Assembly (NCBI GenBank): GCA_015665315.1
Contig: JADFAK010000005.1
Span: 1 to 64,000 of the forward strand
Direction of reading: 5' to 3'
DNA length: 64,000 nt
Source of the DNA: Flavobacteriales bacterium
GTDB lineage: Bacteria > Bacteroidota > Bacteroidia > Flavobacteriales_D > Sanyastnellaceae
Shown here: positions 50,548 to 63,453 of the stretch, one piece after another
Position numbering within the stretch: the first letter of the stretch is position 1
How the letters are laid out: each line of letters begins with the position of its first letter
The notes under the pieces: model-generated
Seen by the model: only the letters and a program-made list of their open reading frames with translations
Databases searched by the model: none
What the model was told of the DNA's origin: nothing
Made by a program: the position numbers and the translations under genes

Positions 50548-52458
50548 TTACATTCTTTCCGGCATTTCTATTCCCAATAATCCCATGCCCGTTTTCAGGG
50601 TATCTCCCATCTTCGATGAAAGGGCTACGCGGAAATCTCGGCGGTTTGGATCTTCCTCTTTCAAAATCGGATTGCTCTGATAGAAAGACGAATACTCTTT
50701 GACCAGCTCGAAGCAATATGAACTAATTACCGACGGATCGTAGGCCATGGCAGCGTCAGAGATAATTCCCGGAAAATCGTGCAGTTTGATGAGCAATGAC
50801 TTTTCGGTGGGAGACAAGTTGAAATTTGTTTCCAACGTAGCGGGAAGGGCCTGATCATATCCACGTAATAAAGCACGTGTTCGCACATAGTTGAACTGCA
50901 AGTAAGGTCCCGTGTTTCCATTAAAGTCAACCGATTCGGTCGGATCAAACATCATGTTTCGCTTAGGGTCAACGCGCAGAAGGAAGTATTTTAGTGCGCC
51001 GTGACCAATGATCTTAAACAACTTTTGTCGTTCCTCTTCAGCCAAACCTTCCAGTTTGCCCAATTCAGTCGTAATTTCACCCGCAGTAGCGGTCATCTGC
51101 GCCATAAGATCGTCAGCATCTACCACAGTTCCTTCACGAGATTTCATCTTTCCAGAAGGGAGTTCAACCATGCCATAACTCAAATGGAAATTGTCCTTGG
51201 CCTGCTCAAAACCTAGTTTGCTCAAAATGTGGAACAATACCTTAAAGTGGTACTCTTGTTCGTTTCCAACCGTATAAATTTGGTAGGTGAGAGATGGATA
51301 ATCCTGAAATCGCAGAATGGCAGTGCCAATGTCCTGAGTCATATATACAGCAGTTCCATCCCCACGTAGGACCAATTTCTCATCCATGCCGTCGGCCGTC
51401 AAATCACACCATACCGATCCATCTTCTTTCTTAAAGAATACTCCTTTGTCAATTCCAGCTTCGACCTCTTCCTTGCCTTTGAGGTAAGTATTGCTTTCAT
51501 AATAAAGTTTGTCAAAGGTCACACCCATTTCGCGATAGGTGTCTTCAAATCCCTTGTAAACCCATGCGTTCATAGTTTCCCATAATCCATACACTTCTGG
51601 ATCTTTGGCCTCCCATTTTTGGAGCATTTCTTGAGCCGCCAGTAATATTGGAGCCTGCTTCCCTGCTTGGTCCAATAGCGACTTCATTAGTTTTAATTGC
51701 TGCTTCTCGGTCTCATCAAGCTCCGCCGACTTTCCTTTGTTGGTGAGCATCTTGTTGTATTCCACAACATCTTCGACGTTCTTTAGAAGATACTCGGCAC
51801 TTGCTAGCTCTTGTGCAAGTTGCTTGATTTCCTCTTTGTATTGTTTGTCAAATGCGACGTAGTACTTGCCGACTAGATGATCGCCTTTTAAACCCGATGT
51901 TTCAGGCGTTTCACCTTCTCCGTATCGTTGCCAGGCCAACATACTCTTGCAAATATGAATTCCTCGATCGTTGATGATTTGAACCTTGATAACATCGTGT
52001 CCATGAGCCGCTAGAATCCGGGCGACCGAATACCCTAGAAAGTTGTTGCGTAGGTGTCCTAGGTGCAATGGTTTATTGGTATTCGGAGATGAATACTCGA
52101 CCATAACCTGACCCTTTGATTTTGGCGCTGCTAGTCCAAAACGCTCTTCGTGCAATATAGAATTGAAGTAATTGAGCCAGTAGGCCTCGGATATAACCAA
52201 GTTTAAGAATCCCTTGACTACGTTGTAGCCCACTATTTCTTCGCAGTGTTCGACTAGGTATTCACCCAATATGGCTCCAGTCTCGGGAGGAGACTTCTTG
52301 GAAAAACGAACGAATGGAAAAACAACAACAGTCAATTCCCCTTCAAAATCCTTGGATGTCTTTTGAAGCTGAAGTTGCTTTGGATCTAAGTCATGCCCGA
52401 ACAAACTAGAGATTCCTTCGATGCATTTACTGATTAATATGTCTTCAATTCGTTTCAT
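50548..52458 (-). CDS. argS: Arginyl-tRNA synthetase
   Basis: 636 residues, class I synthetase. The HIGH motif is HLGH in SPNTNKPLHLGHLRNNFLG near 125. ELPSGKMKSREGTVVDADDL near 415 carries the KMSKS-like loop. The N-terminal additional domain (1-110) and C-terminal DALR anticodon-binding helices (from about 515) are present. It charges tRNA-Arg. Its start overlaps the CtlX gene stop by 14 bp, and that gene follows arginase, so an essential gene is coupled to two arginine-consuming enzymes. Confidence 0.96.
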   Translation of the reverse strand: MKRIEDILISKCIEGISSLFGHDLDPKQLQLQKTSKDFEGELTVVVFPFVRFSKKSPPETGAILGEYLVEHCEEIVGYNVVKGFLNLVISEAYWLNYFNSILHEERFGLAAPKSKGQVMVEYSSPNTNKPLHLGHLRNNFLGYSVARILAAHGHDVIKVQIINDRGIHICKSMLAWQRYGEGETPETSGLKGDHLVGKYYVAFDKQYKEEIKQLAQELASAEYLLKNVEDVVEYNKMLTNKGKSAELDETEKQQLKLMKSLLDQAGKQAPILLAAQEMLQKWEAKDPEVYGLWETMNAWVYKGFEDTYREMGVTFDKLYYESNTYLKGKEEVEAGIDKGVFFKKEDGSVWCDLTADGMDEKLVLRGDGTAVYMTQDIGTAILRFQDYPSLTYQIYTVGNEQEYHFKVLFHILSKLGFEQAKDNFHLSYGMVELPSGKMKSREGTVVDADDLMAQMTATAGEITTELGKLEGLAEEERQKLFKIIGHGALKYFLLRVDPKRNMMFDPTESVDFNGNTGPYLQFNYVRTRALLRGYDQALPATLETNFNLSPTEKSLLIKLHDFPGIISDAAMAYDPSVISSYCFELVKEYSSFYQSNPILKEEDPNRRDFRVALSSKMGDTLKTGMGLLGIEMPERM

Positions 52459-53398
52459 TCTGTATTCGGGGTAAAAATATTTCGGCGATCATGCAACGAG
52501 CACTTCCTCCGCCGTAATTCTCTATTGTCTGCAAATCAACATAAACTAACTTGCCAAAAGCCTCTAACTGCTTCGCCTGCTTTGTTGTCAATGACTCTCT
52601 TGCTCTGGCCGACATAACTATAATAGCGTCGCCTGAGCCAGTTCGCAATTCGAGTATGTTGCCTGCAAAATTATCTATTTGATCCAAACTGAGGTCGATA
52701 AGCTCAAGACCACTTTCTTTCAGGGATGAGATAACGCTTTCTCTTTCCTCCGAGTCGGCGATGCTCTCAGTGCAAACAACCGCAAAACCGTTTCCAATGC
52801 TCATCATGACATTGGTATGGTAGATAAGGTGTTGCTGTCCGTTCACACGGTGGTAGGCTTTAAAAAGAATAGGAGAGTAACCCATTTCAGCACAAAAGTG
52901 AGCCACAGCTTTCTCATCTGTCCGACCCGAAAGCGCAGCATAACACATGCGATTCTTGCGATCCAATACCATGCTGCCGGTCCCCTCGAGAAATTTACCA
53001 TGCTCCTCGAATTCGGTAAAATCAAAAACTCCCTCCAAAGCAAAATTGAATTCATCCTTGATCGTCTTGAACACGTCATCTCGCCGTTCCATTCTTCTGT
53101 TCTCCGCAAGCATAGGGTAGAGGCACACAATCTTGTTGCTGTGGAAGCTGATCCAATTGTTGGGAAAAAGAGCGTCTGGTGTTTCAGGTTCAACGGTGTC
53201 ATTCACCACAATAACTTGGACTCCATGGTCTTGTAAAGCAAGAACGAGGCTCTCAAATTCCTTCTGAGCCAATTCGTTTGCATCCACATCTAGCCCCGAA
53301 TCCTGTTGGAAATGATTGTCTACTGCAGTCTCTTGATTCATTCGGAAACTAGCCGGTCGAATCATCAAGACGCAATCGGTCGTTTGTGAATGAGTCAT
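52445..53398 (-). CDS. ctlX: CtlX-type guanidino-group hydrolase (arginine deiminase-related)
   Basis: 317 residues from the Met of MTHSQTTDCVLMIRPASFRMNQETAVDNHFQQ. A longer frame from 53473 would overlap arginase; the chosen start lies 22 bp after its stop. The amidinotransferase-like propeller shows DALFPNNWISFH, EGTGSMVLDRKNRMCYAALSGR, YHTNVMMSIGNGFAVVC (catalytic His) and GGGSARCMIAEIFLP, with the nucleophile Cys. Family members are annotated as citrulline-utilisation hydrolases; the exact substrate (arginine, citrulline or related) is uncertain. It is the middle gene of a leftward operon with arginase and argS. Confidence 0.85.
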   Translation of the reverse strand: MTHSQTTDCVLMIRPASFRMNQETAVDNHFQQDSGLDVDANELAQKEFESLVLALQDHGVQVIVVNDTVEPETPDALFPNNWISFHSNKIVCLYPMLAENRRMERRDDVFKTIKDEFNFALEGVFDFTEFEEHGKFLEGTGSMVLDRKNRMCYAALSGRTDEKAVAHFCAEMGYSPILFKAYHRVNGQQHLIYHTNVMMSIGNGFAVVCTESIADSEERESVISSLKESGLELIDLSLDQIDNFAGNILELRTGSGDAIIVMSARARESLTTKQAKQLEAFGKLVYVDLQTIENYGGGSARCMIAEIFLPRIQNETN

Positions 53399-53420
53399 AA
53401 ATACGATGTATAAGGAAGGC

Positions 53421-54386
53421 CTACCTTTCTTTGATAGTATTGAACGCGCGCTCGACGATTGGGTAAACAGCAACGGCCATTTTGTTAACCGTATCCAATA
53501 GCGGATTCACTTCAACGACCTCAAAACAGCACACTTTAGGGTCTACCAAGAGAACGTCAAGAAGTTGCTCAACCTCGTTCACTTCAAATCCATGAGGAAC
53601 AGGGGTTCCCGTTCCTACTGATATAGATGTGTCCAATGAATCAACATCGAAAGAAACATAGATTAAATCGCAGGCCTCAAGGTATTTGAGCGTTTCCAAT
53701 CCAATATATTTAGCCGATTGCGACCGGAGCTCGTCAACACTAAATTTCTTTATGTTGAACTTTTCACAAATTCGATCTTCCTCTTTTTCAGTATCCCTCA
53801 CACCAATGAACACGATGTCTTCAGGAAGTACTTTTGGCGAAGGACCGCCGGTATTCTTAAGACTTTCCCAACCAGCGACTGCTTCTTTTGCAGGCTCCTT
53901 CTTGGCCATTTCCATATTGTCATACCCGATAGCTGTTGCCAGCGGCATTCCATGGACATTGCCAGAAGGTGATGTATAAGGAGAGTGAAGATCTGCGTGA
54001 GCGTCAATCCAAACCACTCCGAGTCGTTTGCTAGGGTGTGCCGACTTAATACCAGCAATCGTGGCACCCGCCGAACTATGGTCCCCTGCAATGATAAAAG
54101 GAAAGTCGTTTTTCGAAAAAGTAGACTTCAGCTGAGTGCAAATACGCTCATACATTCTCGAAATTCCAGCAATGTACTTCGCATTGTTGGTCGGGCTAGG
54201 AAGCAGTAAGAGGTCATTCTCTGTCTCAATTTGAACACGACCTGGTTCACGAAAAATGGAATTTTCACTTTCCAAAGATGCGATTTGCAAACTTCGACTC
54301 CCAAGACTTGCCCCCCGTGTACCTGCACCGAGTTCGGAATTAACTTCTATGATTGTGATCAATTGTCCTACAATTTTGAAGAACAA
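53421..54386 (-). CDS. rocF: Arginase
   Basis: 321 residues of the ureohydrolase fold. The manganese motifs GDHSS (IIAGDHSSAGATIAG), WIDAHADLHSP and SFDVDSLDTS are all present, with the C-terminal EVVEVNPLLD. The N-terminal ELGAGTRGASLG is characteristic of the arginase branch. It cleaves arginine to ornithine and urea. First gene of the leftward operon with CtlX and argS. Together with the cyanophycin cluster at 25-29 kb it could use the Arg freed from the polymer. Confidence 0.93.
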   Translation of the reverse strand: MFFKIVGQLITIIEVNSELGAGTRGASLGSRSLQIASLESENSIFREPGRVQIETENDLLLLPSPTNNAKYIAGISRMYERICTQLKSTFSKNDFPFIIAGDHSSAGATIAGIKSAHPSKRLGVVWIDAHADLHSPYTSPSGNVHGMPLATAIGYDNMEMAKKEPAKEAVAGWESLKNTGGPSPKVLPEDIVFIGVRDTEKEEDRICEKFNIKKFSVDELRSQSAKYIGLETLKYLEACDLIYVSFDVDSLDTSISVGTGTPVPHGFEVNEVEQLLDVLLVDPKVCCFEVVEVNPLLDTVNKMAVAVYPIVERAFNTIKER

Positions 54387-54643
54387 AAGTAAGTCTTTTG
54401 CGAACGAATGAAAACGAATGCTGCAATTATTGGATTTTTAGCCTAAAAAGGTGGCCACGGAGTAAGAGGTCGGCCAATAAATTCAGCAATATCAAGTAAG
54501 TGAAAGACAAAAATATCGAAATAGGAGTTTTCAAGGGAGTTGGTGGTGAAAACTTTAATGTACTACCTCGCTTATCCCTAGATAATTATGCCAATTTTGA
54601 CAATATCGACACAGCCACTTTTACAAATAGATCTCTAAGACCT

Positions 54644-55402
54644 ATGTCTAACGTTACAACCGCCCTTTTTGCATTGTTCGGAATTTTACTATTTTCTTCC
54701 TGTTCACCGAATGCTGAAGAGAAGAAATTCTCCGAAGGAACAATTATTTACGATGTTACTTTTCCGTTTCAACAAAATGACATCCTCGTAAATTTATACC
54801 CGTCTGAAATGATCATGGACTTTAAAGACGACAAGGTCAGAATGTCCATGCAGTCGCTCGGTGGTCTCGTGGCTACGGAATTTGTCGTCGACAATGGCAC
54901 GCATGAATTTAGCCAAATCCTTCGCGCTCTGAAAGAAAGACATTTCATGAGCTTGAACGAGACGGAGGTAGGGGAGATGGTTAACAGCATGCCCAAAATG
55001 ATTTTGACACCTACCAATGAAACAGATACGCTTGCCGGTTATTTGTGTAAAAAGACAATCGCTATTTTCGACTCAGACTCAGTCCCTCCGATCGAACTTT
55101 GGCATACCGATCAAATTGATCTGACAAATCCCAATTGGTGCAATCAGTTTTACGAATCTAAAGATGTACTACTCGGGTATGAAATTGAACAATACGGAAT
55201 GCGGATGCGTCTGCGAGCCAGAAGCGCTATGCCAACCGATGTGCCTGATTCTCGATTTGCTCTGCCCGAAGGTTATTCCAAGTTAGACTACCTCGGTATG
55301 CGCGCACATGTCAAAGAATTGTTAGGCCAGTTTCAGAAAAAAGAGGATGATTCCACTGAAATTGAAGGTATTCCCAGTGAAGGACAGCAAATTGTAGAAT
55401 AA
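54644..55402 (+). CDS. Putative lipoprotein, DUF4412-like
   Basis: 252 residues from the Met of MSNVTTALFALFGILLFSSCS, a lipoprotein signal (Cys20). The ORF opens at 54500 but the first 48 codons look non-coding. The mature part (EGTIIYDVTFPFQ, EMIMDFKDDKVRMSMQS, GYLCKKTIAIFD, PPIELWHTDQID, LGYEIEQYGMRMRLRA) follows the beta-rich GLPGLI/DUF4412-like pattern of exported Bacteroidota proteins. Function not known. One 18-bp repeat lies 14 bp after the stop. Confidence 0.65.
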   Translation: MSNVTTALFALFGILLFSSCSPNAEEKKFSEGTIIYDVTFPFQQNDILVNLYPSEMIMDFKDDKVRMSMQSLGGLVATEFVVDNGTHEFSQILRALKERHFMSLNETEVGEMVNSMPKMILTPTNETDTLAGYLCKKTIAIFDSDSVPPIELWHTDQIDLTNPNWCNQFYESKDVLLGYEIEQYGMRMRLRARSAMPTDVPDSRFALPEGYSKLDYLGMRAHVKELLGQFQKKEDDSTEIEGIPSEGQQIVE

Positions 55403-55416
55403 AGGTGCTATTATTC

Positions 55417-55434
55417 TAGCACAAGGCAAATGAT
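55417..55434 (+). repeat. Dispersed 18-bp repeat, copy B
   Basis: TAGCACAAGGCAAATGAT, identical to 46944-46961, directly between the lipoprotein stop and the stop of the leftward gene at 55436. Confidence 0.75.
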
Positions 55435-55435
55435 T

Positions 55436-55846
55436 CTATTTGCACTTTTCATCAAAACTCAACTCGATATCCATTAAGGCATACTCGAAATCTTCGCTTA
55501 GCATTTGCTCCCTCGTAAGCGAATCACTTTGAAAGTAGATGCCATTGACTTTTCCTTGAGCTTTGTAACCCGCTTTCAGACAATTAGTCTTGGCCGAAAA
55601 TGAATCGGTTGTTTTATCGTTTAGATAGAAGTCGATACCGAGAGTATAGGTGCAATCTTTGTCCGTGTCATTGACAACCTTGAGAAAAATCGCTACATCC
55701 GAACCTCCGTCATCGCGCTTAGCTTTGCCCGTCTTTGTGTAGAATTTAACCCCTTGATCTTCAAATTGCAGAGTGTATTTCTTCTGAGCTTGAGCCGTGA
55801 ACGTGAAGCCCAAAAGCAAACTACTTATTATTATAAGCGCTCTCAT
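55436..55846 (-). CDS. Small secreted protein, unknown
   Basis: 136 residues with a signal peptide (MRALIIISSLLLGFTFTAQA). The rest is a beta-rich domain (KYTLQFEDQGVKFYTKTGKAKRDDGGSDVAIFLKVVNDTDKDCTYTLGIDFYLN) with Cys residues at about 68, 90 and 135. The pattern resembles an Ig-like fold, but no family is recognised. It overlaps the upstream lipoprotein gene by 26 bp and is probably coexpressed. No sorting signal for T9SS. Confidence 0.65.
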   Translation of the reverse strand: MRALIIISSLLLGFTFTAQAQKKYTLQFEDQGVKFYTKTGKAKRDDGGSDVAIFLKVVNDTDKDCTYTLGIDFYLNDKTTDSFSAKTNCLKAGYKAQGKVNGIYFQSDSLTREQMLSEDFEYALMDIELSFDEKCK

Positions 55847-56498
55847 ATTGTTTTAATATTTTGATGTTGTCAAAATCGATCACTCCTCCCATTCGGTCTG
55901 TTCCAATAAATCGCTCATTGATAAACCTAAAATCGTTGTAGTTCTCCGATGTTATGGCATAAACCATTTGAATGCCATGCCCATTGTACTGGGTGTTGAC
56001 CGAGTCCCATTCCATCGTTAAACGGGTAAATGTCCCATTTATTTGTCCTTCATACGTTTCTGGAGAACCTTCAAAATGATCTTCAAAATCGACGGTGAAG
56101 TCGCCTTCGAAAAAGGCGATATAAGCCATGGTCGTATCCAATTGAACACCTGGTGATACATAGTCCAGCCTGATGTTCTGACCGTAATTCTTCAATCCCT
56201 TCCTTCCCCAGTCAGATAGCGTTTCGATCATCGTCACTCGCTCTTCATCAGTTTTGAAAATGCCGGGAAAAGCCATGTCTACGTACGTTTCATAATCCTG
56301 ACCATTCAGCGAGCTGAAGTAAACTTGTAGGTTGCTATCTATCGCCTTGTACACCTCTTCACTAGCTTTGGGTAATTCGTAGACTTCCCCAATATTTTCA
56401 CCGGGAGTTGTAGATGGATGACTCAATTTCTTTTCATCACATCCGTTGCATGCGAATAGAATTAGCAAGGGGAATAGGTAAATCAGCGTTTTCTTCAT
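55821..56498 (-). CDS. Putative lipoprotein, unknown
   Basis: 225 residues from the Met of MKKTLIYLFPLLILFACNGC, a lipoprotein signal. A six-residue extension is possible. The mature part contains AIDSNLQVYFSSLNGQDYETYVDMAFPGIFKTDEERVTMIETLSDWGRKG, a pattern reminiscent of SnoaL/NTF2-like small folds, but this is uncertain. The gene overlaps the following small secreted-protein gene by 26 bp; overlap of this size supports coupled translation. Function unknown. Confidence 0.65.
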   Translation of the reverse strand: MKKTLIYLFPLLILFACNGCDEKKLSHPSTTPGENIGEVYELPKASEEVYKAIDSNLQVYFSSLNGQDYETYVDMAFPGIFKTDEERVTMIETLSDWGRKGLKNYGQNIRLDYVSPGVQLDTTMAYIAFFEGDFTVDFEDHFEGSPETYEGQINGTFTRLTMEWDSVNTQYNGHGIQMVYAITSENYNDFRFINERFIGTDRMGGVIDFDNIKILKQYESAYNNK

Positions 56499-56871
56499 GG
56501 TGTTTGTTTGATGCAAAAATATACTTTCTGGGGAAATTCAACACTTTATCTAATGTGTTGATTCTGATAATATTGACACCACAACGGATCGGCTATTCGT
56601 CAACAAGTGCACGGACGAAATCAGAATCCCGAGAAAAAATTATCTGTCGGATAAATCTTATAGTGGCCAAATGGTGCAACAATTCTAAAGGGAAGTCAGT
56701 ATAACAGAAAAGAGCAGTATTAACGACAACTACCCAAAAGAACTACTACTATAGTTTAGCTTGGTTTAGGAAAACGTGGCATCAAGCTGAGAACTTGCGC
56801 CGCGTTTTTCTTTTTCCTTTTGAACCTATTTCAGTTTGAGGTGTACGGTGCCATGAAAACATCTAATTCTC
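56499..56871. other. 373-bp gap with an orphan rightward terminator
   Basis: No ORF was found that looks coding. It should contain the promoter of the leftward lipoprotein pair and that of the RnfD-like gene. A rightward hairpin with a T-tract near 56771-56808 ends a transcript that matches no known gene. Confidence 0.45.
56771..56817 (+). terminator. Orphan terminator-like hairpin
   Basis: AAAACGTGGC (56771-56780) pairs with GCCGCGTTTT (56799-56808, one G-T pair), followed by a T-rich tract. No + strand gene lies directly upstream, so it could end a small RNA or an antisense transcript. Confidence 0.5.
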
Positions 56872-57699
56872 ATGGCTCAAACTGCATCTTTCCCCCAAAC
56901 AATCAGTTCAACTGTCAGGTCTCTTGATCCAAGAGATTTTCAGATTTTCTTTCTTTCAATCTTTCTTTGTTACGGTATTTATGCCCTTGATTGGGGAGCC
57001 GAATGGTCCAAGTATACGACTTTGATTGGCGTTTCACTGATGGTCCAGCTTTTGGGGGAATGGATTGTTGGCAATCAGCAATCGTCCTGGAAAAGTGCTG
57101 TCATTACCGGACTTGGTCTGTGCCTCCTTCTCAAAAGCAGTGAACTATGGGTTCTAGCCTTGGCTGCTACAATTGCCATAGCCGGAAAATTTCTGATTCG
57201 ATACAAAGGGAAACATGTCTTTAACCCCGGAAACCTTGGGATCATAGCTGTTTTACTACTCACCGATGTTGCCTGGATCTCTCCAGGACAATGGGGGAGT
57301 GGATTCATGCTTCTTTTCTTCTTTGGTGCCGCTGCAACAATGGTGTTGCTCAAAGTTGGAAGGATCGATACATGTCTTTCTTTTCTGATCACTTTCGCGG
57401 CCCTAGAATTTTCACGAACGGTACTATACCTCGGCTGGGGACCAGATGTGTTCTTCCACAAAATGTGCAATGGTAGCTTTCTTCTCTTCACGTTTTTCAT
57501 GATTACCGACCCCGTCACTACGCCCAGTGATGGCAAAGCGCGGATTATTTGGTCTGTGCTAATTGGTGTACTTGCCTTTGTGCTCTCGCATTGGCTGTAC
57601 ATCCACGCTGCTCCTATATGGGCGCTCATTATCGCCGCGCCTTTAACTGCGCTACTTGATAGAAAATTCAAGCACTCACTTTTTCAATGGAATCGATAA
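56872..57699 (+). CDS. RnfD/NqrB-like membrane protein
   Basis: 275 residues with about nine hydrophobic helices. KHVFNPGNLGIIAVLLLTDVAWISPGQWGSG (the NP.N motif) and NGSFLLFTFFMITDPVTTPSDGKARIIW are the hallmark of the RnfD/NqrB family, where this loop carries a covalently bound FMN in redox pumps. The conserved S/TGAT flavinylation Thr is replaced (NGSF), so covalent FMN may be missing or on Ser. It is shorter than true RnfD and no other Rnf/Nqr subunits are near. The next gene starts 12 bp later and encodes a DUF2330 protein, with which it probably forms a unit. Confidence 0.82.
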   Translation: MAQTASFPQTISSTVRSLDPRDFQIFFLSIFLCYGIYALDWGAEWSKYTTLIGVSLMVQLLGEWIVGNQQSSWKSAVITGLGLCLLLKSSELWVLALAATIAIAGKFLIRYKGKHVFNPGNLGIIAVLLLTDVAWISPGQWGSGFMLLFFFGAAATMVLLKVGRIDTCLSFLITFAALEFSRTVLYLGWGPDVFFHKMCNGSFLLFTFFMITDPVTTPSDGKARIIWSVLIGVLAFVLSHWLYIHAAPIWALIIAAPLTALLDRKFKHSLFQWNR

Positions 57700-57711
57700 A
57701 TACATAATACT

Positions 57712-59154
57712 ATGAATATGAAAAAAGGATGGGCCATCTTCTTCATGGTCCTTATTGCAATGACCCCAGCAATGCCAACTTTAGGTTTCTGTGGGTTCTA
57801 CGTCGCCAAAGCAGACGCGAATCTCTTCAATGATAAATCCGAGGTAATCCTCGTTCGTGATGGAAACAATACGACCATTACGATGAGCAATGACTTCCAA
57901 GGTGACGTTAGTGAGTTTGCCATGGTAGTCCCCGTGCCAGTTGTACTCCGTAGAGATCAAATCCGTATTGCCGACCCCGGACTCTTCGCCAAACTGGACA
58001 CTTATTCATCACCAAGATTGGTTGAATACTACGATCCTATGCCCTGTATGCCTGAGTACAACTATCGAATGATGGAATCGGATATGGAGATAAACTTGTC
58101 ATCAGTGATGGTGTTTGACGCAGTGGCCGAATCTGCCAAGGACCTCGGAGTGTCCATCGAAGCTCAATATGACGTTGGAGAATATGATATCCTCATTCTA
58201 TCAGCCAAAGAATCTACTGGTCTGCAAAAATGGCTCACGCAGAACGGCTACAAAATCCCAGCCCAGGCCAATGAGGTACTTGCTCCCTACATCAAAGATC
58301 AGATGAAGTTCTTTGTCGTCAAAGTAGATGTAGAGCAAAGAGGTCAGTTCTCAAGCGATCGACTGAATCCCATTCAAATTTCATTCGAAAGCGACAGGTT
58401 TATGCTTCCAATCCGACTGGGAATGGCAAACTCACAGGGAACTCAAGATATGATTGTCTACGCTTTCACAAAAGAAGGGAGGGTCGAATGTGCAAATTAT
58501 AGAACCGTTAAAATCCCAACGGATAGGAATATCCCTACCATCGTCCAGCCACGTTTTGGTCAGTTTTACAAAGATCTTTTCGACAAAGCCTATAAGAACG
58601 AAGGACGCAATGCGATCTTTCTAGAGTATGCGTGGAATGTGAGTCCAACCTGGGGCGTAAAATGCGATCCTTGCAATGGGCCCCCTCCAATTGTACAAGA
58701 GATGAACAATGCTGGCGTAAGTTGGATGACCGGGAATTCGGGTCAAGTGTTTTTTACCAGACTTCACGTTAGATATTCAAGAGACAAGTTTCCTCAAGAC
58801 CTCATGTTTCAAGTCACCCCAAACAAAGAACATTTTCAATGCCGGTATGTCATGAACCACGCGGCACAAGGTGATATGAGTTGCGACGAAGGACAGCGAT
58901 ACTTGAAAGAATTGGAGTCGAGGAGAAAAATGGAAATGGACGAGTTGAGTGCGCTGACCGGTTGGGACAGCCCTCTTCAGAAGAATTATATCCAAGAGTT
59001 TTCGAATCAGATAAAAGGAGACGTCATGACAACAATTGATCCTTCATCTGCCTGGAGTATTATCAAAGGGATATTCGTGATACTTCTAACCCTGGCGCTT
59101 TTTTCCAGCGCTTGGTGGGTATTCGAACATAAAAGAGCCTCAGACCTAGAATAG
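57712..59154 (+). CDS. DUF2330 exported membrane-anchored protein
   Basis: 480 residues; Met3 (57718) is an alternative start. The signal peptide MKKGWAIFFMVLIAMTPAMPTLGFC is followed by the DUF2330 pattern GFYVAKADANLFNDKSEVILVRDGNNTTITMSNDFQGDVSEFAMVVPVPVV, and LGVSIEAQYDVGEYDILILSA and RYVMNHAAQGDMSC later. Cys residues (for example CDPC near 322) could bind metal or form disulfides. A C-terminal helix (SIIKGIFVILLTLALFSSAWWVF) anchors it, with the body outside the cytoplasm. Function is not known. It pairs with an RnfD-like protein. Confidence 0.82.
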   Translation: MNMKKGWAIFFMVLIAMTPAMPTLGFCGFYVAKADANLFNDKSEVILVRDGNNTTITMSNDFQGDVSEFAMVVPVPVVLRRDQIRIADPGLFAKLDTYSSPRLVEYYDPMPCMPEYNYRMMESDMEINLSSVMVFDAVAESAKDLGVSIEAQYDVGEYDILILSAKESTGLQKWLTQNGYKIPAQANEVLAPYIKDQMKFFVVKVDVEQRGQFSSDRLNPIQISFESDRFMLPIRLGMANSQGTQDMIVYAFTKEGRVECANYRTVKIPTDRNIPTIVQPRFGQFYKDLFDKAYKNEGRNAIFLEYAWNVSPTWGVKCDPCNGPPPIVQEMNNAGVSWMTGNSGQVFFTRLHVRYSRDKFPQDLMFQVTPNKEHFQCRYVMNHAAQGDMSCDEGQRYLKELESRRKMEMDELSALTGWDSPLQKNYIQEFSNQIKGDVMTTIDPSSAWSIIKGIFVILLTLALFSSAWWVFEHKRASDLE

Positions 59155-59161
59155 TTATGAG

Positions 59162-59205
59162 AACACCTCCTTTTTGCTGGTAAACTTGGCGGAATAGGAG
59201 GTGTT
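59162..59205 (+). terminator. Terminator after the DUF2330 gene
   Basis: AACACCTCC (59162-59170) pairs with GGAGGTGTT (59197-59205); the loop is 26 bases and a short T-run follows. Confidence 0.7.
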
Positions 59206-59282
59206 TTCCTACAAGGTAATTAACCTAGCGCCTACTAACTATCGATGCTTGCTCTCGTTAACAACATAAGATAATAAGAGCA

Positions 59283-59660
59283 ATGAAGTTAAAAGCTATT
59301 ACCCGCAACCTAGTAACGTTCAGCTTCAGTGCAGTCCTTCTAGTTTCATGTTACGATGAAACAAAAGACCTAGCACGATTCTATGATTCAGAAATGACTT
59401 ATAGTGAGCGCCAAACGTATTCGTATTACGATTGGAACGAAACGAAAAATGTTAGTCTCGAGATTAAAACACCAGAAGATGGATTAATAAAAGTCCGCGC
59501 TCTAAACGGCGAAATTCTCTTTCAAGGATACCTGGTGGATGGAGTACTTTCTGAACTCACACTGTCGGTTCCGATTGAAATCGACCAAATCTTGATCGAG
59601 TACAAGGATCAAATTGAAAATGTGAGTTGTGGCGCACGAAAAATCAGATTTGCGTTCTAG
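59283..59660 (+). CDS. Small lipoprotein, unknown
   Basis: 125 residues. MKLKAITRNLVTFSFSAVLLVSCYDE is a lipoprotein signal (Cys23). The mature part is beta-rich (KNVSLEIKTPEDGLIKVRALNGEILFQGYLVDGVLSELTLSVPIEIDQILIEYKDQ), which fits a carboxypeptidase-regulatory- or Ig-like sandwich. It lacks recognised motifs. It is closed by a strong bidirectional terminator shared with the gap gene. Confidence 0.65.
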   Translation: MKLKAITRNLVTFSFSAVLLVSCYDETKDLARFYDSEMTYSERQTYSYYDWNETKNVSLEIKTPEDGLIKVRALNGEILFQGYLVDGVLSELTLSVPIEIDQILIEYKDQIENVSCGARKIRFAF

Positions 59661-59694
59661 CAGAAAGCTGCACACAAAAAAATGTAGGATACAA

Positions 59695-59724
59695 AAAAGG
59701 GTCGGCTAATACCGACCCTTTTTG
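59695..59724. terminator. Bidirectional terminator between lipoprotein and gap genes
   Basis: AAAAAGGGTCGG, loop CTAATA, CCGACCCTTTTT: perfect 12-bp stem with A and T runs on both sides, between convergent genes. Confidence 0.92.
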
Positions 59725-59740
59725 CTGAATAGTAATATCT

Positions 59741-61204
59741 CTAGTAATAGATGTTACGACGAACTTTGGCAACATATTTGGCCAATCGAATAACCTGCTT
59801 GGTGTATCCGAATTCATTGTCGTACCAAACATAAAGTACGATGCTCTTGTTGTCAGGTCCAACAATTGTAGCCGGACTGTCAAACACCGAACAACATTCA
59901 TTTCCAATTATGTCGTTAGAAACCAACTCGTTGTTGATAGAATAGAAGATCTGGTTCACCAAATCACCTCCCAAAGCCGCATCCTTCATAATGCCCTGAA
60001 CTTCCTCAACTGTAGTAGTTCGATCAAGCTGCAAGTGCATAATGGCCAAAGAACCATTCGGTGTAGGAACACGAACTGCATTGGCAGAAAGCTTATTGGC
60101 TAGCGCAGGTATAACCTTTGTTACCGCTTTCCCTGCACCAGTGCTTGTGATGACCATATTGATGGCTGCTGATCGACCACGACGTGGGCCTTTGTGCATG
60201 TTATCCAACAAGTTTTGATCGTTGGTATAAGCATGGATGGTTTCGATATGCCCTTTATCGATCCCCATTTTATCGTGAATCACTTTTAGTACAGGACTAA
60301 TCGCGTTTGTCGTACAACTTGCTGCCGAGAAAATATCAGTACCATCTAGGTCAAGCTCCTTGTGGTTAATTCCGTACACAATATTTGGAATGCCAGCTCC
60401 CGGAGCAGTAAGGATGACTTTGCTTATCCCTTTTGCCGATAAATGCTGCGAGAGTGCTTCTTTGTCTTTATATATCCCCGTATTGTCGATGAGTAGGGCG
60501 TTTTCAATGCCGTACTCCGTGTAATCTATTGTGCTCGGATCTGAAGAAGAAATGAACTGTACACGCTGACCATTGATAATCAAGCAAGAATTCGGAACAT
60601 CAACCTCTATCGTACCAGCAAAACGACCGTGAACTGAGTCATTTTCGAACAAGGAAGCCCGCTTGGCCAAGGTTTTTTCGTCTAATCCTCTGGCAACAAT
60701 ACCACGCAACCTAAGCTGTTGACCTTTACCAGCTTGCTTGATCAATTCGCGCGCTGCCAATCGACCAATTCGGCCAAAACCATAGAGAACAACATCTCTT
60801 GGCTCTATATTATCGCCGTCTGTCGAGGTAAACTGACCTAACTTCGAGTCCAAGAAAGAACGCATCGAATCTTGATTCTCTCTCTCTAGCAACCACTCAT
60901 TGGCAAGTTTACCAATGTCGATTTTAGAAGGAGCTAGATTCATATTGAGGATCTCTCGTGCTAAATCAGCACAATCGAACACACTCACAGGTTTTCCAAC
61001 AACATCGCCCGCATATCGGTGCAAACGAAGAATATCTGTAATGCTGCAATCGACCAGGTGATTGCGAAATAATACAAGCTCAATTGACTTTTCAAATTGC
61101 AACTTGCCTATTGAGTTTTGAAGATCAATAACAGCGCGTTCTTGGTTAACATAAGCATCTAATTCATTGCTATACGTTTGAGCGCGTTTGCTTAAAACTG
61201 ACAT
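59741..61204 (-). CDS. gap: Glyceraldehyde-3-phosphate dehydrogenase, long form
   Basis: 487 residues from the Met of MSVLSKRAQTYSNELDAYVNQ. The ORF opens at 61276, but the near-perfect promoter (61247-61277) lies inside that stretch and rules it out. An extra ~130-residue helical N-terminal region precedes the NAD-binding domain (VVLYGFGRIGRLAARELI near 140). The catalytic Cys is in FSAASCTTNAISPVLK, and the catalytic domain ends with YVWYDNEFGYTKQVIRLAKYV. This long form is common in Bacteroidota. It catalyses the glycolytic/gluconeogenic step between glyceraldehyde 3-phosphate and 1,3-bisphosphoglycerate. Confidence 0.95.
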   Translation of the reverse strand: MSVLSKRAQTYSNELDAYVNQERAVIDLQNSIGKLQFEKSIELVLFRNHLVDCSITDILRLHRYAGDVVGKPVSVFDCADLAREILNMNLAPSKIDIGKLANEWLLERENQDSMRSFLDSKLGQFTSTDGDNIEPRDVVLYGFGRIGRLAARELIKQAGKGQQLRLRGIVARGLDEKTLAKRASLFENDSVHGRFAGTIEVDVPNSCLIINGQRVQFISSSDPSTIDYTEYGIENALLIDNTGIYKDKEALSQHLSAKGISKVILTAPGAGIPNIVYGINHKELDLDGTDIFSAASCTTNAISPVLKVIHDKMGIDKGHIETIHAYTNDQNLLDNMHKGPRRGRSAAINMVITSTGAGKAVTKVIPALANKLSANAVRVPTPNGSLAIMHLQLDRTTTVEEVQGIMKDAALGGDLVNQIFYSINNELVSNDIIGNECCSVFDSPATIVGPDNKSIVLYVWYDNEFGYTKQVIRLAKYVAKVRRNIYY

Positions 61205-61246
61205 AGAGGATAGATTGAAGTGTGTATTGGTTCTCAAATTTTGCCG

Positions 61247-61277
61247 CAAAAGTAATTTACTCATCGTGTGTACCAAA
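61247..61277 (-). promoter_or_regulatory. Consensus promoter of the gap gene
   Basis: On the minus strand TTTG (61277-61274), 19 bp, then TACTTTTG (61254-61247). This is the full Bacteroidota TTTG-N19-TAnnTTTG consensus, about 43 bp before the gap ATG. Confidence 0.85.
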
Positions 61278-61554
61278 GACTTTTTGGATTAAGTTGTCAC
61301 GCATGATGAACAAAATCGCCTTTAAAAATTAAGGAGTTGTGAAAATTTGAGCAATACCAAACGCTTCACTTGATACTGTTTGAAATACAATAAGTTAGAA
61401 TGTTTTTGGTTCAATTTTTTGAACCGACCTGAATGGATAAATTAGAGAAGAATACCTATAGGATCAATGGATTATTAGCAAGTTTGAGTGCTTGATTGAT
61501 TCTAAAACGGGTACACTACACGTCATAAGAGAAGATTAAGCTTCTATCGAGATC
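61278..61554. other. Spacer between gap promoter and CocE gene
   Basis: AT-rich spacer with no ORF, tRNA or repeat that I can support. Confidence 0.4.
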
Positions 61555-61580
61555 GAAGGTCTTCCGAAAGGGAGACCTTC
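61555..61580. repeat. Hairpin after the CocE gene
   Basis: GAAGGTCTTCC, loop GAAA, GGGAGACCTTC. The T-run follows on the + strand, opposite to the neighbouring leftward gene, so it is not an ordinary terminator for that gene. It may still slow or protect its mRNA 3' end. Confidence 0.5.
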
Positions 61581-61584
61581 ATTT

Positions 61585-63453
61585 TTACAGCTTGATGAAC
61601 TCCATCCGTTGAACTCCTCGCTCGGTTGCTATTTCGATCAAATAATGACCTGGTTTTAGACCACTTATATTGGGAGGGTTCCATGTGTTCATGAATCCAG
61701 TCAGCACAGTTTTTCCGCTCATGTCGATCACTGAGTATCTCGTGTTCTCCGGCAAACCACCAATATTAAGGACGTCTCCAGCAGGATTGGGGTATAAATG
61801 GATTGAATCTTCCTTCTTGTTAAGAGCTACATTGTCCGCAAGCGATACAATAGGCAGGACAACGTATGAATTCATGGCAGGTCCAATATGCACACTGTTA
61901 TGTGCCACCAAGGGATTCACCAAGGTATCAAGGTTAAGACCGGGATACATTTCTCCACCGTTGTTCATGTTGCGATTGTATTGGGGATAGTTTGAAGAAG
62001 AGATGATGATTCTTAATTGATGGCCTTCGGCAAATGTGTAAGCAAGTGCAGGTAAAGTTATCTCTACATCATAGATATCTCCGGGGATCAGGTCGCTCTC
62101 TGCCGATGCAGTATATCCCTCCATAAAACGCATCCGTTGTCCATTGGAATTCAACATGTATGAAGACCCATCTGGGAATACGTCAGTTAGGCGCACAATG
62201 AAGTCTGTGTCGACTTGATCACTTGAAACCTGTATTCTGACAACAATATCCCCCGAAATATCCAGTGCGCCATCTTCGATAGGAAGTGAAAAGAGTAATA
62301 CATCATCTCTCGATTCTACAGCCTCACTTAAATCAAACGGCCCTTGTGGCAACGACAATACTTGTCCGCCAATAGTAGGAGAGGGGTCCTCTGGGTCGTA
62401 GTCGTAGCCAATAACGGCGTCATTTTCTGGTGAAGTCGCTGTAATCGAATGATCTTCCCGAAAGTAAAAAGTCGACTGCTCAACATTTGCCGGAGGCCAA
62501 ACATTGCTAGAAAGCCATTGATCGGTATTGGTTTGGAAATACGAGATGCTCGGTTCATCTTCCCAGTCATTGTCTATTCCCCGTAAATAATAATCGAAAA
62601 ACTGCATAGCTTTGATTACGTTAACACTAGCTGCAGCAGCGTAGGTTAGTTCGCCCTGTTGCTCCGATCCGACATATGCCGGTCCATTGCCACCGTGAAC
62701 CCACGGACCCATCAATAATTTGTGTTTATCGGCTACTGGCGACAAGGCTTGTAAATCGCTAAAAGTGCGCATGACATCCGTCGTATTGATATCGTACCAA
62801 CCGCCGATCAACAACATTGGGACCTCAATGTCATCTGTATACTGTGTTTCTTCTTCGGCGATTTGCCACACAATATTGTAATATGGCAGAGAAGCGTATA
62901 AACTTGAAATACCAAATAAGACTCCCAACTGAAGAATATGCTCTGTTTTGGCAATTCCACCTGGGAAAAAGTGGAAGTAATTCTGCTGGGGAGCACCCAC
63001 TTCAGGAACACAGCATTTTAAGTGGGGAGGGTGGAAGGATGCTGTTTGGTATTGTACTGTTGCCAATGCAGATGGTCCATAAGTCCCTATGTTGCCATCG
63101 CACCAGTCTTGCTCAGCAATCCATTCCACAGCGTCGTACCCGTCTTGACCATTGTCAGAATCTTCGACGCATGCATCCATACTGGCAAATCGACAGCGCC
63201 AGTCAAGAATGACAAAACCGTAATCCGAACTTTCCTGATCCCAGCCCACACCCAAGGGCAACCCAAGATGATATAGGTCTTTGTTGTAAGGGGTCTGTAT
63301 TAAAATGATTGGGTAGGTACCCTCGGCACTAGGTAAGTACACATCTGCAACCAAAAACTCACCGTCAGACATGGGAATAGCAATGGTTTCCCACTCCGGT
63401 TGCGAAAAACACACTGTAGAAACGAGAAGAAGTAGACAGGTCAAATATTTCAT
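61585..63453 (-). CDS. CocE/NonD-type hydrolase, T9SS-secreted
   Basis: 622 residues from the Met of MKYLTCLLLLVSTVCFSQ, a signal peptide (11 further codons upstream are possible). The alpha/beta-hydrolase part resembles CocE and X-Pro dipeptidyl-peptidase (S15) enzymes: ILIQTPYNKDL, DWRCRFASMDACVEDSDNGQDGYDAVEWIAEQDWCDGNIGTYGPSALA with the nucleophile Ser128 in GPS, and a jelly-roll domain (about 330-530). LLIGGWYD and LMGPWVHGG carry the acid and the His. The C-terminal ~75 residues (IHLYPNPAGDVLNIGGL to the end) form a T9SS type A domain. It probably cleaves esters or peptides outside the cell. Confidence 0.87.
   Translation of the reverse strand: MKYLTCLLLLVSTVCFSQPEWETIAIPMSDGEFLVADVYLPSAEGTYPIILIQTPYNKDLYHLGLPLGVGWDQESSDYGFVILDWRCRFASMDACVEDSDNGQDGYDAVEWIAEQDWCDGNIGTYGPSALATVQYQTASFHPPHLKCCVPEVGAPQQNYFHFFPGGIAKTEHILQLGVLFGISSLYASLPYYNIVWQIAEEETQYTDDIEVPMLLIGGWYDINTTDVMRTFSDLQALSPVADKHKLLMGPWVHGGNGPAYVGSEQQGELTYAAAASVNVIKAMQFFDYYLRGIDNDWEDEPSISYFQTNTDQWLSSNVWPPANVEQSTFYFREDHSITATSPENDAVIGYDYDPEDPSPTIGGQVLSLPQGPFDLSEAVESRDDVLLFSLPIEDGALDISGDIVVRIQVSSDQVDTDFIVRLTDVFPDGSSYMLNSNGQRMRFMEGYTASAESDLIPGDIYDVEITLPALAYTFAEGHQLRIIISSSNYPQYNRNMNNGGEMYPGLNLDTLVNPLVAHNSVHIGPAMNSYVVLPIVSLADNVALNKKEDSIHLYPNPAGDVLNIGGLPENTRYSVIDMSGKTVLTGFMNTWNPPNISGLKPGHYLIEIATERGVQRMEFIKL

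Follow-up and report, generated by a model that had tools for sequence, protein, structure and literature searches.

What does an RnfD-type membrane protein do when it is encoded apart from the other subunits of a redox pump and next to an exported protein of the DUF2330 family? The question is posed by two genes in a 64,000-nucleotide stretch of a Flavobacteriales genome (family Sanyastnellaceae; assembly GCA_015665315.1, contig JADFAK010000005.1, positions 1 to 64,000), hereafter the window. The two plus-strand open reading frames, at 56872-57699 and 57712-59154, encode proteins of 275 and 480 residues. They are separated by 12 bp (57700-57711), which makes translational coupling likely; at many other loci the two genes overlap by 4 bp or lie 10-30 bp apart. 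The first protein scores 65.3 bits against PF03116 (NQR2_RnfD_RnfE; cut-off 27.7) and belongs to that superfamily, but falls well below the cut-offs for RnfD and NqrB proper (TIGR01946, 34.7 versus 207.05; NF003756, 23.3 versus 414). We have named it mini-RnfD. The second scores 259.7 bits against PF10092 (cut-off 24.7) and is a member of DUF2330. A Pfam domain scan returned PF03116 alone for the first protein, and PF10092 plus one sub-threshold match for the second. An earlier, sequence-only reading of this DNA had suggested that the two might form a redox or ion system distinct from the known Rnf/Nqr complexes. The idea of a separate two-part system is strongly supported by evidence described below: the two genes are present or missing together, lie side by side, are repeatedly fused and occur in cyanobacteria devoid of canonical NqrB/RnfD. 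The result is a well-supported but uncharacterised two-gene system that combines an RnfD-type membrane protein and an exported partner, and whose function we infer.

The distribution of both genes was surveyed across the window's class (198 genomes), using a three-protein mini-RnfD profile and taking E below 1e-80 as strong. Strong mini-RnfD matches are present in 20 genomes; the next match is at 2.4e-36 (an UnbU-type protein in genome G007, see below) and the rest are NqrB/RnfD-like at 1e-7 or weaker. PF10092 is found in the identical 20 genomes, for which the probability by chance, ignoring kinship, is 1/C(198,20) or about 8e-28. Five families of the class hold both states (f2, f52, f58, f61 and f95), and in all five the two genes change together. 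The genes are neighbours in 17 of the 20 genomes (fused in four) and unlinked in G296, G397 and G451. DUF2330 was also observed in three genomes of a 296-genome sample of the phylum, each time adjoining or fused to mini-RnfD. Mini-RnfD and DUF2330 are a real pair, present or missing jointly in the genomes sampled, and they co-occur even where the genes are unlinked. Clustering of the neighbours at 22 Bacteroidota and 43 mostly cyanobacterial loci gave no candidate for a third gene of the system, none being shared widely. In G296 (L052:7941-15985), mini-RnfD, unlinked from the four DUF2330 genes of that genome, precedes a small Cys-containing protein and a putative CusA/CusB-like metal-efflux operon (named from sequence).

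The pairing recurs in cyanobacteria. With E below 1e-60 taken as strong for both proteins, strong mini-RnfD and strong DUF2330 occur in an identical set of 27 of 117 genomes; the genes are adjacent by coordinates in 23 and unlinked in G554, G558, G571 and G583. Two groups of genomes count against the pattern. G488, G494, G504, G516 and G522 contain only a weak DUF2330 match and no strong mini-RnfD, while G531, G540 and G589 contain an RnfD-like protein (about 1e-35) without DUF2330. G531 and G540 are fusions to CRTAC1 (the former partial, at a contig end), and the G589 gene is truncated where its contig stops.

The same genomes separate the pair from the known pumps. A PF03116 search located canonical RnfD only in G494, outside the 27, and canonical NqrB/RnfD in none of the 27 pair-bearing genomes. 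Apart from the mini-RnfD genes themselves, its remaining hits are forms linked to CRTAC1, namely those of G531 and G540 and an additional gene of G556. ApbE is present in 12 of the 117 genomes and in just one of the 27 (G479), being absent from the other 26. The pair is therefore independent of Nqr/Rnf and, in 26 of 27 genomes, of flavinylation. The sequence-only reading had also stated that no other Rnf/Nqr subunits are present. This is correct near the locus, where none was seen among open reading frames of at least 80 residues at 53000-63000, but not for the genome, which carries nqrA, nqrB and nqrC (named from sequence) as an operon of their own on contig C1, along with two ApbE genes.

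A genome_contigs scan with 23 aligned proteins yielded 552 relatives. The best 80 were kept; as these most resemble the window protein, counts from them lean towards the pair. DUF2330 accompanies mini-RnfD at 75 of these 80 loci: fused at 11, within 400 bp at 59 and near at five, either in overlapping reading frames or across a gap of about 530-545 bp. L106, L126 and L154 have no neighbouring DUF2330 but have one elsewhere in the genome, and L099 and L151 sit at contig ends in assemblies with no DUF2330. The loci are mostly from Bacteroidota, with three from cyanobacteria (L164, L167 and L168). Two of the 11 fusions are partial, L127 running off its contig and L164 having a broken frame and contributing to no model. 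A lack of conservation in other genomes, which the sequence-only reading had named as refuting its idea, is not what the class, cyanobacterial and locus surveys show; all three favour the pair. In the natural fusions the DUF2330 signal segment sits after the mini-RnfD C terminus. Of 84 mini-RnfD proteins placed on a tree, 78 were scored for fusion (13 with it and 65 without) and six were left unscored. The tree needs six changes of fusion state, five of which are forced by well-supported branches; fusion or splitting has therefore occurred repeatedly. We note that the Flavobacteriales genome new MAG-311 has two complete pairs on different contigs (L094 and L153).

The NP.N and ITDPVTTP motifs reported previously are indeed present in mini-RnfD, as FNPGN at residues 117-121 and ITDPVTTP at 211-218, with NGSF at 200-203. 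Residue equivalences were obtained by aligning the NqrB of the window's own genome to the solved Vibrio cholerae NqrB, in which Thr236 lies in DGYSGAT, N200 in GRNFLNP and D346 in ATDP. We take Thr236 to be the site of covalent flavin mononucleotide (FMN) attachment in NqrB, which fits the T236Y mutant entry 9ud3. Thr236 is located within residues 205-268 of NqrB, between the NP motif and PGSIGE, a stretch reduced in the mini-RnfD of the window to some 18 residues, P119 to P138, with SPGQWGS at its end. In a profile of the short proteins PGQWG aligns with the PGSIGE/PGSLGE found at residue 269 of NqrB and 211 of RnfD, so the stretch bearing Thr236 is gone. The deletion site, from N118-P119 to PGQWG142 by alignment, corresponds to 57223-57297 on the plus strand. 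The spacing between the NP motif and the Asp of TDP is 94-108 in the short proteins versus 133-246 in NqrB/RnfD; it was measured in 79/80, 21/21 and 20/26 short proteins (the last set being 25 cyanobacteria and Metabacillus) and in 9/11 NqrB/RnfD. An [ST][GA]A[ST] motif is present in all nine NqrB/RnfD measured; the covalent-FMN Thr motif, written [ST]GA[ST], occurs in three of 79 measured genome_contigs short rows, where its position varies. With the Thr236 loop deleted, canonical covalent flavin is not expected in mini-RnfD. NGSF had been proposed to stand where the flavin Thr is expected. This can be ruled out, since NGSF aligns with L333-F336 of NqrB, just before the gate helix, and the whole flavin loop is missing.

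According to PMC10643135, NqrB binds riboflavin through D346, which makes two hydrogen bonds, T162, N200 and the backbone of G198, and its constriction is formed by F338/F342. By alignment the equivalent codons in mini-RnfD are those of Thr79 for Thr162 (57106-57108, requiring a two-residue gap), His115 for Asn200 (57214-57216) and Asp213 for Asp346 (57508-57510), all on the plus strand. Conservation was counted over 132 aligned rows, fragments included. Wherever a row has a letter, Ser or Thr occupies the Thr162 site (92 such rows are from Bacteroidota), Asp the Asp346 site and His the Asn200 site, UnbU-type proteins included. The Phe342 site, F209 in the window protein, is likewise Phe except for Tyr in five UnbU rows and one other. 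Two of the three riboflavin contacts (Ser/Thr79 and Asp213) thus appear to be kept, and the third is now an invariant His.

The fold was compared using an AlphaFold model of L156, one of the natural fusions (764 residues; nine fused rows), with a predicted local distance difference test score (pLDDT) of 83.9. The model matches RnfD with Z of 22.7-24.2 (best 8rbq_D, 24.2; 4.6 Å over 253 residues) and NqrB with Z of 21.3-22.5. The ammonium and urea transporters (AmtB and relatives) follow at Z of 10-12, around half the RnfD score, and Foldseek is concordant with this ranking.

The DUF2330 protein begins with a hydrophobic signal, ends in a helix and contains seven Cys, in agreement with the exported, Cys-containing partner 12 bp downstream that had been described. 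The predicted signal peptide comprises residues 1-25 (57712-57786, plus strand), as judged from the sequence, a model helix at 4-16 and the alignment; cleavage would expose the conserved mature start FCGFYV, which directly follows the signal segment. The helix at 444-479 (59041-59148, plus strand) is a probable membrane anchor, given the model and its hydrophobicity. Modelled alone (pLDDT 83.9), the protein consists of a beta-rich domain flanked by the signal and C-terminal helices. Across 80 aligned DUF2330 proteins, five Cys (C27, C112, C318, C321 and C391) reach 99-100% conservation. C318 and C321 form a CDPC motif (58663-58674, plus strand) found in 100% of these 80 rows and in every strong DUF2330 counted (24/24, 79/79 and 32/32 in three overlapping sets), but in none of 15 unpaired DUF2330 proteins of another type (14 cyanobacterial, one from Nocardia). 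These other proteins (Nocardia L088 and cyanobacterial long forms) belong to the same Pfam family PF10092 but lack CDPC, have the N-terminal Cys pattern ACGG... and are without mini-RnfD where this was looked for. Haem binding by CDPC was considered and ruled out, the sequence having no CxxCH.

Among solved folds the closest to the window DUF2330 is baculovirus P35 (Z 11.1, 4.6 Å over 221 residues, 6% identity), the next scoring Z 6.7. The P35 match recurs in the L156 fusion model (Z 10.7) and tops a viral library (E 0.008). P35 is a caspase inhibitor; the template-modelling scores with the DUF2330 beta domain are low (0.28/0.44), so that the match serves as a lead only and no function is drawn from this modelled resemblance. 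A three-row profile searched at E up to 5 did not find a solved relative by sequence. DUF2330 paralogues occur in tandem, two to five in a row beside one mini-RnfD, at L040, L046, L048 and L124, and at L283 four copies in a row are unlinked from mini-RnfD. On a plasmid of Deinococcus sp. QL22 (L085:7001-8176, plus strand) a CDPC-type DUF2330 is broken into three frames, with no RnfD-like gene near it, and D. taeanensis contains a fragment. Plasmid searches with DUF2330, mini-RnfD or UnbU gave few records outside Streptomyces.

Some relatives of mini-RnfD have different partners. A 47-protein tree (38 short, nine NqrB/RnfD) splits the short proteins from NqrB/RnfD with support of 100/100 and groups the 30 DUF2330-linked rows in one clade (98/93). 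Rows linked to CRTAC1 and a redoxin join at a weaker 93/77, with long branches included. We use the name UnbU for the RnfD-like proteins of enediyne clusters; UnbV_ASPIC is Pfam's name. In G007 (L055) the RnfD-like gene overlaps a CRTAC1/UnbV gene. On Streptomyces plasmids (L287 and L288) and a Serratia plasmid (L285) it follows a CRTAC1 or VCBS-repeat protein, and in the two Streptomyces cases a polyketide synthase comes next. Many plasmid relatives are labelled 'enediyne biosynthesis protein' by NCBI. Cyanobacteria have the RnfD-like domain fused to CRTAC1 (FG-GAP repeats and UnbV_ASPIC), as seen at L276 (5255-8296, minus strand) and L275 and in the single 1014-residue protein of G540. No polyketide synthase was seen among the neighbours read at L276 and L275, and the UnbU-UnbV pair thus has relatives outside enediyne clusters. 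On a Metabacillus plasmid (L086:6396-7783, plus strand) the RnfD-like gene overlaps by 4 bp an exported-looking redoxin gene (AhpC-TSA/Redoxin, with CxxC), a possible third class of partner represented by a single case. UnbU resembles mini-RnfD in keeping His115, Asp213 and the NP motif, in its short flavin loop and in having an exported-looking partner. It is a sister branch, outside which mini-RnfD falls, and differs in its CRTAC1 partner (FG-GAP, UnbV_ASPIC), encoded in a polyketide cluster or alone in cyanobacteria. The literature searched gave no role for UnbU in enediyne clusters.

These observations allow a mechanism to be suggested. We propose, with a probability of roughly 45%, that the pair is a stand-alone membrane electron carrier in which a non-covalent flavin serves an exported thiol protein. 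Mini-RnfD would hold the flavin near the cytoplasmic face, in a riboflavin pocket that seems mostly kept, and would work outside any Nqr/Rnf complex, having lost the periplasmic loop for covalent FMN. DUF2330 would be on the outer side, anchored through a C-terminal helix of its own or through fusion, and would fill the place taken in the pumps by the FMN shuttle NqrC/RnfG. Its Cys residues (CDPC and C391, perhaps also C27 and C112) may swap electrons with the membrane flavin, such that reducing power would be moved between the membrane and an extracytoplasmic substrate. The retained riboflavin-site contacts and the subfamily-specific CDPC fit the redox or ion role first suggested for the pair. 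The Metabacillus overlap with a CxxC redoxin gene also counts for a redox reading.

Comparison with known systems is instructive. Mini-RnfD shares with RnfD/NqrB the fold (Z 21-24), the NP and TDP motifs, the Thr/Asp at the riboflavin-contact sites and a PGxxG after the flavin loop; it differs in lacking the flavin-Thr loop, in the change of Asn200 to His, in scoring far below the curated cut-offs and in having an exported DUF2330 instead of partner Nqr/Rnf subunits. PMC10979944 describes two-subunit Nqr/Rnf-like complexes whose NqrB/RnfD-like subunit is also without a flavinylation site, with a non-covalent flavin modelled as exchanging electrons with an exported flavoprotein partner. We count that subunit as a precedent for the redox reading. 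Meheust 2021 (PMC8238504) defines these complexes by an added NAD-binding domain within ApbE-linked clusters. The pair is alike in combining a membrane subunit lacking a flavinylation site with one extracytosolic partner, but has no cytosolic NAD-binding domain (PF00175), no NqrC/RnfG-like partner and no ApbE link.

Several points weigh against an electron carrier. The five conserved Cys of DUF2330 could be structural disulfides or metal ligands, and the conserved Thr and Asp of mini-RnfD could be structural in the RnfD fold. Mini-RnfD itself has no conserved Cys, the best column over the 132 rows reaching only 47%. It lacks the amphipathic helices of the NqrB quinone site (the first 40 or so residues of NqrB), which leaves a quinone partner without support. 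The L156 model, with a predicted template-modelling score of 0.58 and no error map, does not resolve the placement of its mini-RnfD and DUF2330 domains. CRTAC1/UnbV, the partner in the UnbU branch, is not known to be redox-active.

More tentatively, the idea may extend to a whole class of RnfD-type membrane electron carriers that stand alone, do without ApbE and are each dedicated to a single exported partner. That partner would be DUF2330 for those of Bacteroidota and cyanobacteria, CRTAC1/UnbV for those of enediyne clusters and of the cyanobacterial fusions, and the redoxin for the one in Metabacillus. Within the DUF2330-linked branch CDPC would then replace covalent FMN and NqrC/RnfG, giving a pump-free path of two proteins.

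The rival that survives best, though we consider it unlikely, is that the mini-RnfD family anchors, assembles or matures its partner (DUF2330, or CRTAC1 for UnbU) and transfers neither electrons nor ions. That one membrane family serves such unlike proteins as DUF2330, CRTAC1 and a redoxin, the first two also fused at its C terminus, is what such a factor would show, as are the tandem DUF2330 copies per single membrane protein. However, DUF2330 has a C-terminal helix of its own, DUF2330 of the other type manages without mini-RnfD, and the buried polar residues H115 and D213 would be needless in a mere anchor. It is also improbable that mini-RnfD has reverted to an ammonium/urea-type role as a solute or ion channel, with DUF2330 as a periplasmic gate or binding protein. 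The relationship of RnfD/NqrB to the ammonium/urea transporter family, noted in published papers, the loss of the covalent-flavin loop and the AmtB/urea transporter matches are compatible with this, but the latter score about half as well as those to RnfD/NqrB, no transporter gene recurs near the pair, and the Thr/Asp riboflavin-contact residues are kept together with the constriction Phe (F342 of NqrB, here F209), which would keep the pore closed, as it does in NqrB. A role as accessory subunit in the host Nqr (or Rnf) complex, suggested by the nqr operon of the window's genome, can be rejected as highly improbable, being contradicted by the 27 pair-bearing cyanobacteria without a canonical NqrB/RnfD match and by the absence of the pair from the majority of class genomes whose matches reach no more than the NqrB/RnfD level.

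Around the pair, the window also encodes a GAPDH-like protein (59741-61276, minus strand) whose NAD domain starts at residue 161, preceded by about 160 residues. DDAH-like and arginase-family genes lie side by side at 52445-54386 (minus strand); a related genome, G045, likewise keeps them upstream of the pair, near which they were not seen elsewhere. A literature search found no mention of DUF2330, and no description of the mini-RnfD/DUF2330 pair in work on RnfD/NqrB, flavinylation or enediynes; as most subscription papers lay outside its coverage, this is weak evidence that there is none.

DUF2330, a Pfam domain of unknown function, hereby gains an obligate partner, a subfamily marker in CDPC and a testable setting. 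The database label 'RnfABCDGE type electron transport complex subunit D' carried by proteins of this branch can mislead metabolic reconstructions, because the branch occurs in genomes without an RnfABCDGE complex. The natural fusions offer both partners as one polypeptide for structural and cofactor analysis, and a function found for either the DUF2330-linked or the UnbU branch would make the other directly testable.

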